From: Wenzhouxiangella sp. 15190
Lineage (GTDB): Bacteria > Pseudomonadota > Gammaproteobacteria > Xanthomonadales > Wenzhouxiangellaceae
Length of the DNA stretch: 64,000 nt
Reading direction: 5' to 3'
NCBI RefSeq assembly: GCF_003417465.1
Contig: NZ_QVMV01000039.1
Span: 1-64,000, forward strand
Shown here: piece by piece, positions 25,833 through 28,615 of the stretch
Numbering within the stretch: position 1 is the first letter of the stretch
Layout of the letters: each line of letters opens with the position of its first letter
The notes under the pieces: generated by a model
Seen by the model: the letters and a program-made list of their open reading frames with translations, nothing else
Told to the model about the DNA's origin: nothing
Databases searched by the model: none
Translations under genes and position numbers: made by a program

Positions 25833-25897
25833 TTGGCAAGGGTTGCAATTTATGGCAAATGCCGATATTGTCAATAGCCAAAATTGGCAATTGCCGG
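25833..25897. promoter_or_regulatory. TGGCAA/TTGCCA motif cluster before the EAL gene
   Basis: TTGGCAA (25833-25839), TTGCAA (25843-25848), TGGCAA (25853-25858), a near-palindrome TATTGTCAATA (25866-25876) and the perfect palindrome GGCAATTGCC (25886-25895) are packed in 65 bases. They end 18 bases before the EAL start. The stretch is clearly AT-richer than the surroundings. It may be an operator of a dimeric regulator and the promoter of the EAL-DUF6502 unit. No sigma-54 -24/-12 pair with the right spacing is present. Confidence 0.45.
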
Positions 25898-25914
25898 AAA
25901 AGAGGGAATTTCTC

Positions 25915-26661
25915 ATGGACGTTCAGCTTGCGCGCACGCCGCCGCTTCAGGCAACGGCCGACTTCTGCACATTCGCCGTCCACGAGATTCGCGCGCTTGA
26001 TCCATCGCGGGATCGATTCGGCAGTGCCTATCGCTGGTACGAGGCGTTGATTCGACCTCACGGCCGCCATTGCGCGAGGTCACCGGGTGATTTCATCGAT
26101 CGTCTCTATCTCGAACGGCCGGTAGTCAGTACCGATCTGGAGGTACTGGGCCGGGTTGGCGACTGGTTGCTCGAACAGGAGAAGCCGACACGGATCAGCA
26201 TCAATACGCACCCGGAGTCGCTGACCAACAGCCTGTTCGTGGAGACCGCGCTCGACTTTCAGAACAAGGCCGCTCTGGGCGGGCATTCCATTTGCCTGGA
26301 ACTGATCGAATACGGCCGTAGCCGGGACAAGAATTCCCTGGTGAAAAATGCCCAGCGTCTGCGACGGGCAGGATTGCTGATCGCGCTCGATGATTTCGGG
26401 AGTCGGGTCAACTGTTTCGACCTGTGCGCCGCCGGGATCGTCGACCTGCTCAAGATCGATACCAGTGTCACGAGCGCCGTGCATGTCGACCGCAACCAGC
26501 GTGCCATCGTGGAAAGCATCAAGACGCTTGGGCGGGGGCTCGGTGCGGGCGTGATTGCAGAGGGTGTCGAAACGTCCGACCACGTGGATGCACTGCGCAG
26601 GCTCGGTGTCGAGTATGCCCAGGGCTTCCATTTTCACAAACCTCAATTGCTGGAGATCTGA
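25915..26661 (+). CDS. Stand-alone EAL-domain protein (putative c-di-GMP phosphodiesterase)
   Basis: This 248-aa protein is a single EAL domain without sensor or membrane part. The catalytic set looks complete: WYEALIR, ISINTHP (Asn), LELIEYG (second Glu of the ExxE pair), ALDDFGSRVNCFD, LLKIDTS, AEGVET and the final YAQGFHFHKPQ. The DDFG loop continues SRVNCFD instead of the usual TGYSS, so activity is likely but not certain. The start at 25915 has GAGGG 8 bases upstream. One base separates its stop from the next gene, so the two are surely co-expressed. Confidence 0.87.
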   Translation: MDVQLARTPPLQATADFCTFAVHEIRALDPSRDRFGSAYRWYEALIRPHGRHCARSPGDFIDRLYLERPVVSTDLEVLGRVGDWLLEQEKPTRISINTHPESLTNSLFVETALDFQNKAALGGHSICLELIEYGRSRDKNSLVKNAQRLRRAGLLIALDDFGSRVNCFDLCAAGIVDLLKIDTSVTSAVHVDRNQRAIVESIKTLGRGLGAGVIAEGVETSDHVDALRRLGVEYAQGFHFHKPQLLEI

Positions 26662-26662
26662 G

Positions 26663-27523
26663 ATGTCTGGAGCACTTGCTCAAGAGCAAAACAGCCAGGA
26701 TATCGGATGGCTGGTTGATGCCATGACGCGCATGGTGCGACCCATCGTTCGTTTTGCGATCGGGCGCGTTTCCTGTGCAGCACTGGTCAATCTCGTCCGC
26801 GAGGTTTATGTGGAAGAGGCCAGGGAGTATCTAGAGAAGCAAAATCCCGATCGCAAGGTGACCCGTTCCGCGTTGGCTCTTCTTTGCGGCATGGATGGAC
26901 GTGCGATCAAGGCCTTTGAAGACAACGCCGATCGCGAGTATGTGCCTTCGGACGTTTGCTCAGAGGCCCACATTCTCGAAATGTGGAACATCGACGAGGC
27001 CTTTCTTGATTCAGATGGGTCGCCGGCCGAACTGTTGATCCATGGACCACAGGGAACATTTCAGCGCCTCGTCAGTCGGGCGGCGGGGCGCGCGGTCACG
27101 CCCCAGACAGCGCTCGATCGACTGCTCGAGAGCGGCAATGTCGAGTTGACCGACAACGAAACGCGGGTGCGGCTCATCGATCCGTTCTACAAGCCCGTCA
27201 AGGATTCCGAGAAGACGGCCATCGAGGCTGGCAGCTTGGCAATCAACCGCTTGGGGCGAGCTGTTGTGCACAACACCAGCCGCGTCCCGGCCGGCCAATC
27301 GACCTGGCTGCAACAGGATAGATGGTCCTTTCGCATACCGAGAGATCGCCTCGACATCATTCAGACCGAGGTTCGGACCATTCTCGAGCGCCACATCGTG
27401 GAGTTGGAGGAATACCTCGAATCCGAGGAAAAGAAGCCGTCGGAAGCGACCGAATGTTCCGTAGGAATTGGCTGGTACTACTGGGAGGAGGACAGCACCA
27501 AGGGTGCACAACAGCCAGCCTGA
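26663..27523 (+). CDS. DUF6502-like protein
   Basis: This 286-aa cytosolic protein matches, from memory, the DUF6502 pattern. An N-terminal helical region has MVRPIVRFAIGRVSCAALVNLVREVYVEEAREYLE and ALALLCGMDGRAIKAFED, which resembles a helix-turn-helix. A middle region follows (RLVSRAAGRAVTPQTALDRLLESGNVEL, looking like a winged helix), then a C-terminal amphipathic helix (IIQTEVRTILERHIVELEEYLESEE). A regulatory or DNA-binding role is inference. It follows the EAL gene by one base and precedes the repeat protein by 55 bp. Confidence 0.75.
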   Translation: MSGALAQEQNSQDIGWLVDAMTRMVRPIVRFAIGRVSCAALVNLVREVYVEEAREYLEKQNPDRKVTRSALALLCGMDGRAIKAFEDNADREYVPSDVCSEAHILEMWNIDEAFLDSDGSPAELLIHGPQGTFQRLVSRAAGRAVTPQTALDRLLESGNVELTDNETRVRLIDPFYKPVKDSEKTAIEAGSLAINRLGRAVVHNTSRVPAGQSTWLQQDRWSFRIPRDRLDIIQTEVRTILERHIVELEEYLESEEKKPSEATECSVGIGWYYWEEDSTKGAQQPA

Positions 27524-27578
27524 TGTAGATCAATCTCCCACTTTATAAATTCTGAGTTTAAAGCTCGAGGAGGGCACT

Positions 27579-28475
27579 ATGTTTAGCACGGTAGAGAAGT
27601 CTGGCACCGGTATCGGCAAGAGCGGCACCGGCATTGAAAAGAGCGGTACGGGTATCGAGAAGAGCGGTACCGGCATTGAAAAGTCGGGTACCGGAATCAG
27701 GCGCTGGCAGATCCTGTCCCTGGTCGCGTGCATATTGTTCGCCACCCAGGGCCTGGCTACAGAACCGCAGGTGCTGGTCTCGACCGGCAACGATCAGGTG
27801 CTCGTGTCCGTGCATTCCGATGACGGCATCCTGGTGGGGCGGGCTGAGATGCCCGACCAATCGGGCTATTACCAACTGGCCCTTTACTCGGCCGTGGGTC
27901 CGGTTGGATCCGATGCCGTGTTTCAGCCGATGGTTGCCGGTTCCGGCAGCGGTTCCTCGAAGGAAGTGGCTGGTTCCGGAAGCGGCTCCTCGAAGGAAGT
28001 AGCCGGCTCCGGTAGCGGTTCCTCGAAGGAGGTAGCCGGCTCCGGCAGTGGCTCCTCGAAGGAAGTGGCCGGCTCTGGCAGCGGTAGCGCGGGGGAAAGC
28101 TGTGATTCGGGCACCGGTCTCATGGTCGCGGGCTCGGGTAGCGGCAGCGCCGGCGAAGGCTGTGACGCCCAGGTGCTGGTCGCCGGCTCCGGCAGCGGCT
28201 CGGCCGGCGAAGCCTGCGACAGCGGCGGATGGCTAGACGTAGCGGGCTCGGGCAGCGGCTCGGCCGGTGAAAGTACGGGCTGTGCCTATCCGACTAGTGC
28301 CTGGGGTATTGCTGAAGTGGTCGTCGATCGTAGTGGCGCCCATGTCGTGGTTCACCGGATCAAGGGGAGCCAGGCCGAGGAGTTCCTCGTTGCATTCCTG
28401 CCCGGTTCGAACGGCGAGTTTGCTGATTCGCCGCGCCAAGGTCTGGACGATCGCGGTTTTGTCGCAACGCCCTGA
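27579..28475 (+). CDS. Secreted glycine/serine repeat protein with pre-signal KSGTGI repeats
   Basis: I do not recognise a family for this 298-aa protein. Residues 7-40 are five tandem KSGTGI(E/G) heptads. RR and a hydrophobic, signal-like segment follow (43-60, ending QGLA). After a short domain (61-118) come four perfect VAGSGSGSSKE units (119-162) and four more VAGSGSGSAGE units spaced by cysteine-containing inserts (163 to about 231), then a C-terminal domain of about 65 residues. Repeat copies differ at synonymous codon positions. A strong ribosome-binding site (GAGGAGGG) precedes the ATG. It may be a surface or periplasmic protein with an extended signal region; export is inference. Confidence 0.8.
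   Translation: MFSTVEKSGTGIGKSGTGIEKSGTGIEKSGTGIEKSGTGIRRWQILSLVACILFATQGLATEPQVLVSTGNDQVLVSVHSDDGILVGRAEMPDQSGYYQLALYSAVGPVGSDAVFQPMVAGSGSGSSKEVAGSGSGSSKEVAGSGSGSSKEVAGSGSGSSKEVAGSGSGSAGESCDSGTGLMVAGSGSGSAGEGCDAQVLVAGSGSGSAGEACDSGGWLDVAGSGSGSAGESTGCAYPTSAWGIAEVVVDRSGAHVVVHRIKGSQAEEFLVAFLPGSNGEFADSPRQGLDDRGFVATP
27597..27698 (+). repeat. Five 21-bp tandem repeats coding KSGTGI(E/G)
   Basis: Units start at 27597, 27618, 27639, 27660 and 27681; the last lacks its seventh codon. The protein motif is constant while third positions differ (for example GGC-ACC, GGT-ACG and GGT-ACC for Gly-Thr). Copy-number change would keep the reading frame. Confidence 0.9.
27933..28271 (+). repeat. Eight VAGSGSGS-coding repeats
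   Basis: Four 33-bp units (VAGSGSGSSKE) run from 27933 to 28064. Longer units of 60, 54 and 60 bp start at 28065, 28125 and 28179, and the last copy starts at 28239. All keep VAGSGSGS with varied synonymous codons. The longer units carry cysteines (CDSGTG, CDAQ, CDSGG) absent from the short ones. Confidence 0.9.
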
Positions 28476-28516
28476 TTCGGAGACCCGAAGCTGCGTTGTT
28501 TGTTCAGCGGGCGTTT

Positions 28517-28549
28517 GAGTCGTCAATATTCCCTTCCCGTTGACGACTC
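28517..28549. repeat. Perfect 10-bp inverted repeat after the repeat-protein gene
   Basis: GAGTCGTCAA at 28517-28526 pairs perfectly with 28540-28549 across a 13-base loop. It lies 41 bases after the stop and 15 bases before a terminator hairpin. It could be an mRNA-stability hairpin or a protein-binding site; there is no T-run. Confidence 0.7.
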
Positions 28550-28563
28550 ATGCGTTGTTGGCT

Positions 28564-28589
28564 GCCCCGGCTCTGCCGGGGCTTTTTTA
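28564..28589 (+). terminator. Rho-independent terminator of the EAL/DUF6502/repeat-protein locus
   Basis: GCCCCGG (28564-28570) pairs perfectly with CCGGGGC (28576-28582) across a 5-base loop and is followed by six T. It is the clearest intrinsic terminator seen in the window. It ends the rightward unit just before the convergent sirB2-like gene. Confidence 0.9.
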
Positions 28590-28615
28590 TGCTTCCGTCT
28601 CGACCTGGACCGGGT

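Follow-up and report, generated by a model that had tools for sequence, protein, structure and literature searches.

HetR and the peptides that carry RG[ST]GR form a textbook bacterial pattern-forming circuit, described only from filamentous cyanobacteria (PMC12756182). In that circuit, exported RG[ST]GR peptides keep HetR off DNA: maturation of the exported protein PatX yields HRGTGR, and this peptide inactivates HetR (PMC12756182), while PatS6 binds the HetR hood domain as an added strand and contacts residues E253, E254, D256, D270 and D278; the DNA consensus of HetR is GGGN5CCC (PMC4649674). Here we analyzed a three-gene cassette in a 64,000-nucleotide stretch of Wenzhouxiangella sp. 15190 (contig NZ_QVMV01000039.1, positions 1 to 64,000 of the forward strand), hereafter called the window. 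The cassette encodes, in this order and on the same strand, an EAL-domain protein, a DUF6502 protein and an exported repeat-rich protein (Table 1). We propose, with a probability of about 0.5, that it constitutes a HetR/PatX-like self-regulating circuit, in which a DUF6502 regulator, a G[ST]G motif as its ligand and control of the operon are joined by a phosphodiesterase of cyclic di-GMP (c-di-GMP).

Like HetR with PatS, HetN and PatX, the locus appears to pair a regulator of the DNA-binding type, whose predicted fold matches over the full length, with an exported partner that has the G[ST]G core of the PatX peptide HRGTGR, and distant DUF6502 operons have GGG/CCC palindromic half-sites. Unlike HetR, DUF6502 has no HetR Pfam match and no conserved acidic pocket residues, its half-sites are more widely spaced and a different array is present in Wenzhouxiangella. 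Further, unlike PatS and PatX, the partner of DUF6502 lacks the arginines of RG[ST]GR, is larger and is translated next to its regulator, and in the window the motif occurs in tandem arrays, an EAL gene is added and the host belongs to Pseudomonadota. The window protein scores above the cut-off of the Pfam family DUF6502 (PF20112). Many distant members of that family have DUF5666 (PF18914) lipoproteins as partners, a domain that is lacking from the partner in the window. Neither Pfam entry gives a function and our literature search, with most subscription journals outside its scope, found no paper naming DUF6502, in line with a sequence-only reading of the window that had called the family one of no defined function; for HetR-family or HetR-like proteins, the search found cyanobacterial work only.

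The core module and the repeat protein

Re-reading of the coordinates bore out the tight layout proposed in the sequence-only reading, with one base between the EAL and DUF6502 genes, 55 bp between DUF6502 and the repeat gene, and a terminator-like stem and T-run at the 3′ end. In a family-wide search, DUF6502 was present in 27 of 43 Wenzhouxiangellaceae genomes. The EAL gene lies directly 5′ of DUF6502 in 23 other genomes of the window's genus and related genera, Wenzhouxiangella sediminis among them, and the repeat protein lies 3′ of DUF6502 in all 23; the three families therefore co-occur, as the gene-neighbourhood check suggested in the earlier reading was meant to establish. In one genome (G034) the cassette is divided between two contigs (loci L074 and L052), and in another (G027) the repeat protein is truncated by a contig end.

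To place the cassette in a wider frame, DUF6502 genes were drawn from class- and phylum-wide genome samples, and the next gene was read at 60 diverse loci. DUF6502 occurs in about a fifth of the sampled gammaproteobacterial genomes (60 of 274). The open reading frame (ORF) 3′ of DUF6502 contains G[ST]G at 57 of the 60 loci, compared with an average of 27 in shuffles, and the stricter pattern [ILMVF].GTG[ILMVF] at 33, whereas shuffles gave 1.7 and the pattern was present in 2 of 255 control ORFs. The consensus, (D/E)-(G/R)-G-I-G-G-T-G-I, stands shortly after the export signal, which by simple pattern rules is of the lipoprotein type in 38 of 56 partners, Sec-like in 13 and Tat-like in 5; the partner gene often overlaps the DUF6502 stop by 4 bp, and tandem copies of the motif occur in several lineages (L183, L205, L210 and L213). 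Among 10 partners tested for known domains, DUF5666 was found in six, Calx-beta/fn3 in one and none in three. Because the domains vary while the motif stays, the motif and not a domain is what the DUF6502 neighbours have in common. Searched as a DNA pattern, GGIGGTG followed by a hydrophobic residue was present in 19 of 60 DUF6502-bearing genomes and 15 of 214 other genomes, and 17 of the 34 matches lay directly 3′ of DUF6502.

The core module is thus DUF6502 with an exported GTG-motif protein, and across the phylum it occurs without EAL. Among 85 loci other than full family-type cassettes, an adjacent EAL gene was found only at L074, itself half of a split cassette; at L165 and L178 an EAL gene lies within a few kilobases of DUF6502 but is not adjacent. 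The EAL gene is a lineage-specific, family-level addition outside the wider DUF6502 system. For the three-part unit put forward in the sequence-only reading, co-occurrence within the family stands, and the central pair is DUF6502 with the exported GTG-motif protein.

The window's own partner has no Pfam or NCBIfam match. That it is exported, as first read, agrees with its hydrophobic segment, which in aligned orthologues usually ends in an AxA-type site. The heptad array in front of this segment has 2–7 copies in relatives and the external VxGSGSG array mostly 6–16. Comparison of the five heptads of the window gene showed synonymous differences at 52% of codons and nonsynonymous differences at 0%; for the eight external units the figures are 55% and 0%. 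The units were located by motif pattern, which favours zero nonsynonymous differences at pattern positions, but all five heptads, like external units one to five, follow one another without a gap, so no unit was missed there. Because the units drift synonymously around a fixed peptide, selection acts on the peptide sequence, and a function of the repeat-coding stretch at the RNA or DNA level is ruled out by synonymous differences at about half of the codons. A P-loop reading of GKSGTG was likewise rejected by eye, as the spacing is unfit and E replaces G in most repeats. The Gly/Ser repeats reported in the sequence-only reading are present, along with the additional N-terminal EKSGTGI array; they resemble a regulated surface structure less than a short peptide motif in tandem copies, and this motif is also present, singly, in unrelated DUF6502 partners. 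In the structural model, the beta domain (residues 64–104 and 243–275) has a predicted local distance difference test score (pLDDT) near 90 and the intervening VxGSGSG repeats are modelled at low confidence; a fold search with this model, most of which is of low confidence, gave no match. A strict SGTGI-repeat DNA pattern matched the window alone among 369 gammaproteobacterial genomes, the repeats of its relatives being variable.

Several variants of the pair were also observed. Genome G011 (genus g5), a member of the family, has 17 DUF6502 matches, a paralogous expansion of the pair (L067, L072, L073 and L075–L078); at the inspected loci EAL is missing and a small exported protein comes next, which in most cases has a WGxAE-type core and a GTG/GSG motif. 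A second Wenzhouxiangella subfamily of DUF6502 (L059, L066 and L068–L071) lies beside a short-chain dehydrogenase gene, and at these loci neither a recognisable GTG-motif exported partner nor a known operator was found. At L093–L103 (Lysobacterales and other gammaproteobacterial metagenome-assembled genomes), DUF6502 is followed by an (IEKSGTGI)n/VxGGGTG repeat protein without EAL; several of these loci lie between asnS-type genes and a HIT-family gene, and the group as a whole forms a lineage of its own, in which motif arrays flank the signal sequence. The partner at L165 (about 1749–2150) is very small and secreted, with two VGTGK(G/N)GNLT repeats, and of all the partners it comes closest in size to a PatX-like precursor.

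DUF6502, HetR and operator-like sites

The window protein matches PF20112 with E=5.8e-10 (38.9 bits, cut-off 27). Its AlphaFold2 model (mean pLDDT 81, predicted template-modelling score 0.66) was compared by Foldseek with 350,542 PDB chains. The top match was the HetR-DNA complex 4j00 (E=5.6e-5, probability 1.00, 308 columns, full length) and the second apo-HetR, whereas unrelated winged-helix proteins appeared only from E=0.05. Further, the modelled C terminus follows the order alpha-beta-alpha-beta, like the HetR hood domain. As judged from this model, DUF6502 is probably a DNA-binding regulator with a predicted fold that resembles HetR, in support of the regulatory role suggested in the sequence-only reading. 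At the sequence level, hhalign of a 98-member DUF6502 profile with HetR scored 32.7 (Prob 32%), whereas none of 150 column shuffles exceeded 22.5 and 1 of 100 within-block shuffles reached 29.3; the best segment places DUF6502 columns 160–245 on HetR 185–270. The HetR profile contained two near-identical sequences only, the HetR sequence was checked against PDB entries, and plasmids and viral contigs yielded no HetR homologues for a deeper profile. A PDB sequence search with DUF6502 profiles returned nothing relevant, and no DUF6502 was found in viral contigs.

Upstream of the 60 distant DUF6502 genes, GGGA-N5-TCCC occurs in 14 regions and GGGA-N6-TCCC in 16, with ∼0.3 expected, and the palindrome was absent at every other gap tested. 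The extended form is TGGGA-N5/6-TCCCA, which corresponds to half-sites spaced as GGG-N7/8-CCC; neither this spacing nor the TGKCA-type 16-bp array of Wenzhouxiangellaceae is the HetR operator. TGGGA-N6-TCCCA also stands 5′ of two DUF5666-type lipoprotein genes (L227, 2301–3629, and L234, 5927–7489) that have no GTG motif and are not directly 3′ of DUF6502, which suggests a small DUF6502 regulon with these two as candidate members. A genome-wide regulon of TGGGA sites was rejected, some of the extra matches looking like chance.

In Wenzhouxiangellaceae, three 16-bp copies of the pattern TGKCAAWTGCCRWWWT cover the putative promoter. The AT-rich motif cluster of the sequence-only reading proved to be this ordered array, conserved in orthologues: in 23 orthologous upstream regions the 16-bp periodicity is kept (lag-16 self-match 0.447 compared with 0.256 ± 0.011 in shuffles), and in the region further upstream the value is 0.26. 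In a genome scan, no second site came up at fewer than 3 mismatches to the repeat pattern, and the TGGCAA array was not found before distant DUF6502 operons. The putative promoter was not flagged by a consensus promoter scan; its elements recur in orthologues as CTTGCA/TTGACA and TATTGT, with the spacing unchanged. DUF6502 may bind both the palindromes and the 16-bp array.

The proposed circuit and its rivals

In the circuit that we propose, DUF6502 would act at the repeat array that overlaps the promoter and so control the operon in which it is encoded, and its ligand would be the short G[ST]G motif of the exported protein encoded 3′, much as RG[ST]GR of PatS/PatX is for HetR. In Wenzhouxiangellaceae, the (EKSGTGI)n array, which precedes the signal in the cytoplasm, could bind DUF6502 directly or stay behind after signal cleavage, so that production of the repeat protein would feed back on DUF6502, with a sign that could be either, and no re-import would be needed. 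The external VxGSGSG repeats would be a possible source of a diffusible peptide. The co-transcribed EAL protein would presumably link the circuit to c-di-GMP. More tentatively, and at somewhat less than an even chance, we propose a widespread HetR/PatX-related peptide-signalling family in Pseudomonadota, in which DUF6502 would sense G[ST]G in the exported protein encoded next to it and regulate that operon as well as further exported proteins. In the Wenzhouxiangella form, a single protein would place tandem arrays of the motif inside and outside the membrane, and c-di-GMP turnover would feed in.

Several results weigh against the proposed circuit. Superposition of the DUF6502 model on HetR gives a template-modelling (TM) score of only 0.41 and a root-mean-square deviation of 9.7 Å, which indicates a match of topology with differing domain placement, although, going by its top Foldseek match, the model has the HetR fold of DNA-binding domain, flap and hood. 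The HetR register is repeated more weakly by sub-alignments, from Wenzhouxiangellaceae (26.7, shuffle maximum 20.5) and from distant taxa (22.1, shuffle maximum 22.0). In hmmscan of six DUF6502 proteins (E≤10), neither HetR model, PF03574 or PF18460, was found, and HetR itself matches both. The HetR acids E253, E254, D256, D270 and D278 align in the hhalign register with W221, S222, R224, R238 (invariant) and I246 of DUF6502, so that the acidic peptide-binding residues are not conserved. Of the 60 partners, 57 have the G[ST]G core, but without both arginines of RG[ST]GR. The TGGGA palindrome is not found in front of Wenzhouxiangella cassettes, and in distant taxa the motif is on the exported side, so the peptide would have to re-enter or act before export. 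Because neither the HetR Pfam models, nor the acidic pocket, nor the arginines around the motif are matched, DUF6502 is not classed as a member of the HetR family. The alignment of pocket acids with W221, S222, R224 and R238, together with a motif that has no arginine pair and frequently D/E close by, would be consistent with a ligand chemistry different from that of HetR, although the alignment is weak.

The strongest rival, unlikely in our judgement though far from negligible, is that DUF6502 is a local autoregulator of the usual kind, which represses or activates a gene for an envelope protein or adhesin, that the GTG motif is structural (a linker, fold cap or surface repeat) and not recognised by DUF6502, and that EAL tunes expression via c-di-GMP. 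Operator-like arrays and a tight operon indeed require no peptide ligand, Gly/Ser repeats are frequent in surface proteins, and the motif-bearing partners are mostly DUF5666 lipoproteins with the motif often just ahead of the first beta strand. However, the motif survives a change of partner domain and multiplies in several lineages, is found in a cytoplasmic position in Wenzhouxiangellaceae and Lysobacterales, and is absent from the two operator-bearing DUF5666 paralogues described above. These points speak against the rival. The response of DUF6502 to G[ST]G in the adjacent exported protein is proposed by analogy with HetR.

The cassette EAL is very probably an active phosphodiesterase, because ten catalytic positions (E43, N97, E129, E132, D159, D160, K180, E216, E219 and Q236) are identical in 24 of 24 orthologues despite identities down to 27%; the sequence-only reading had likewise given EAL domains a c-di-GMP-degrading activity. 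The cassette protein aligns to the Pfam model only from position 31 onward but retains its EAL motif. The window genome (G000) has 21 EAL-domain matches in 3.1 Mb, a heavy investment in c-di-GMP. In Escherichia coli, the EAL trigger phosphodiesterase PdeR binds the regulator MlrA directly and keeps it inactive, a binding that c-di-GMP relieves. Similarly, the cassette EAL is encoded beside a predicted DNA-binding regulator, but it is a stand-alone protein of 248 residues and DUF6502 takes the place of a MerR-type regulator. A refinement of the first model of the cassette would make EAL such a trigger enzyme, which binds DUF6502 and keeps it inactive until c-di-GMP is available, with the repeat protein as a regulated matrix or adhesion product. 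We consider this improbable: EAL adjoins DUF6502 in all 24 cassettes with its catalytic residues intact and such pairs are known, but at the 85 loci scanned outside the full cassettes EAL adjoins DUF6502 only at the split-cassette half L074, and the shared GTG motif is left unexplained. Finally, nearly all of the Wenzhouxiangellaceae and Lysobacterales repeat proteins have a single hydrophobic segment flanked by motif arrays, which would suit a membrane-tethered antagonist with an uncleaved signal, a cytoplasmic EKSGTGI array sequestering DUF6502 at the membrane and an external sensing domain, a very improbable arrangement given the AxA-type site ending the segment in most orthologues and the distant partners that have no cytoplasmic motif.

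Locus features and wider meaning

The EAL start was set at ATG 25915 because a longer GTG ORF from 25753 has no orthologue support.

Table 1. Features of the cassette and its upstream region (window positions)
Feature	Position	Strand	Details
Putative sigma-70-like promoter	25843..25871	+	−35 TTGCAA 25843–25848, 17-bp spacer, −10 TATTGT 25866–25871; read from sequence
Operator-like array, three 16-bp direct repeats	25853..25900	.	TGGCAAATGCCGATAT / TGTCAATAGCCAAAAT / TGGCAATTGCCGGAAA; overlaps promoter
Stand-alone EAL-domain c-di-GMP phosphodiesterase (predicted), 248 aa	25915..26661	+	PF00563, E=2.3e-32
DUF6502 protein, 286 aa, predicted HetR-like DNA-binding regulator	26663..27523	+	PF20112
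Exported repeat protein, 298 aa, no known family	27579..28475	+	kept 3′ of DUF6502
N-terminal (E/G)KSGTGI heptad array, five copies	27594..27698	+	before signal sequence
Signal sequence / hydrophobic segment	27699..27758	+	RRWQILSLVACILFATQGLA; from sequence; AlphaFold2 helix 43–56
Extracytoplasmic VAGSGSG(S..E) repeats, eight copies	27933..28277	+	inserted between two beta-domain halves
Intrinsic terminator-like hairpin and T-run	28564..28590	+	8 G-C pairs in stem

In relatives, the cassette lies mostly at the same chromosomal site, flanked by oligopeptide ABC transporter genes 5′ and by SirB2 and acetyl-CoA hydrolase-like genes 3′. Because most of the loci in the window's genus that have long flanks share these neighbours, the cassette is a vertically inherited chromosomal locus, and a mobile cassette is ruled out for that genus. 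A riboswitch and small-RNA search gave nothing near threshold.

Overall, the results suggest that the HetR-type peptide circuit has a widespread, undescribed proteobacterial counterpart. If this is true, it would give functions to two families of no known role, DUF6502 and DUF5666, and would suggest an older or convergent origin of HetR-type signalling logic. It would also bring this logic into tractable proteobacterial hosts, with specific predictions for the operator sequence, the ligand motif and the pocket residues.

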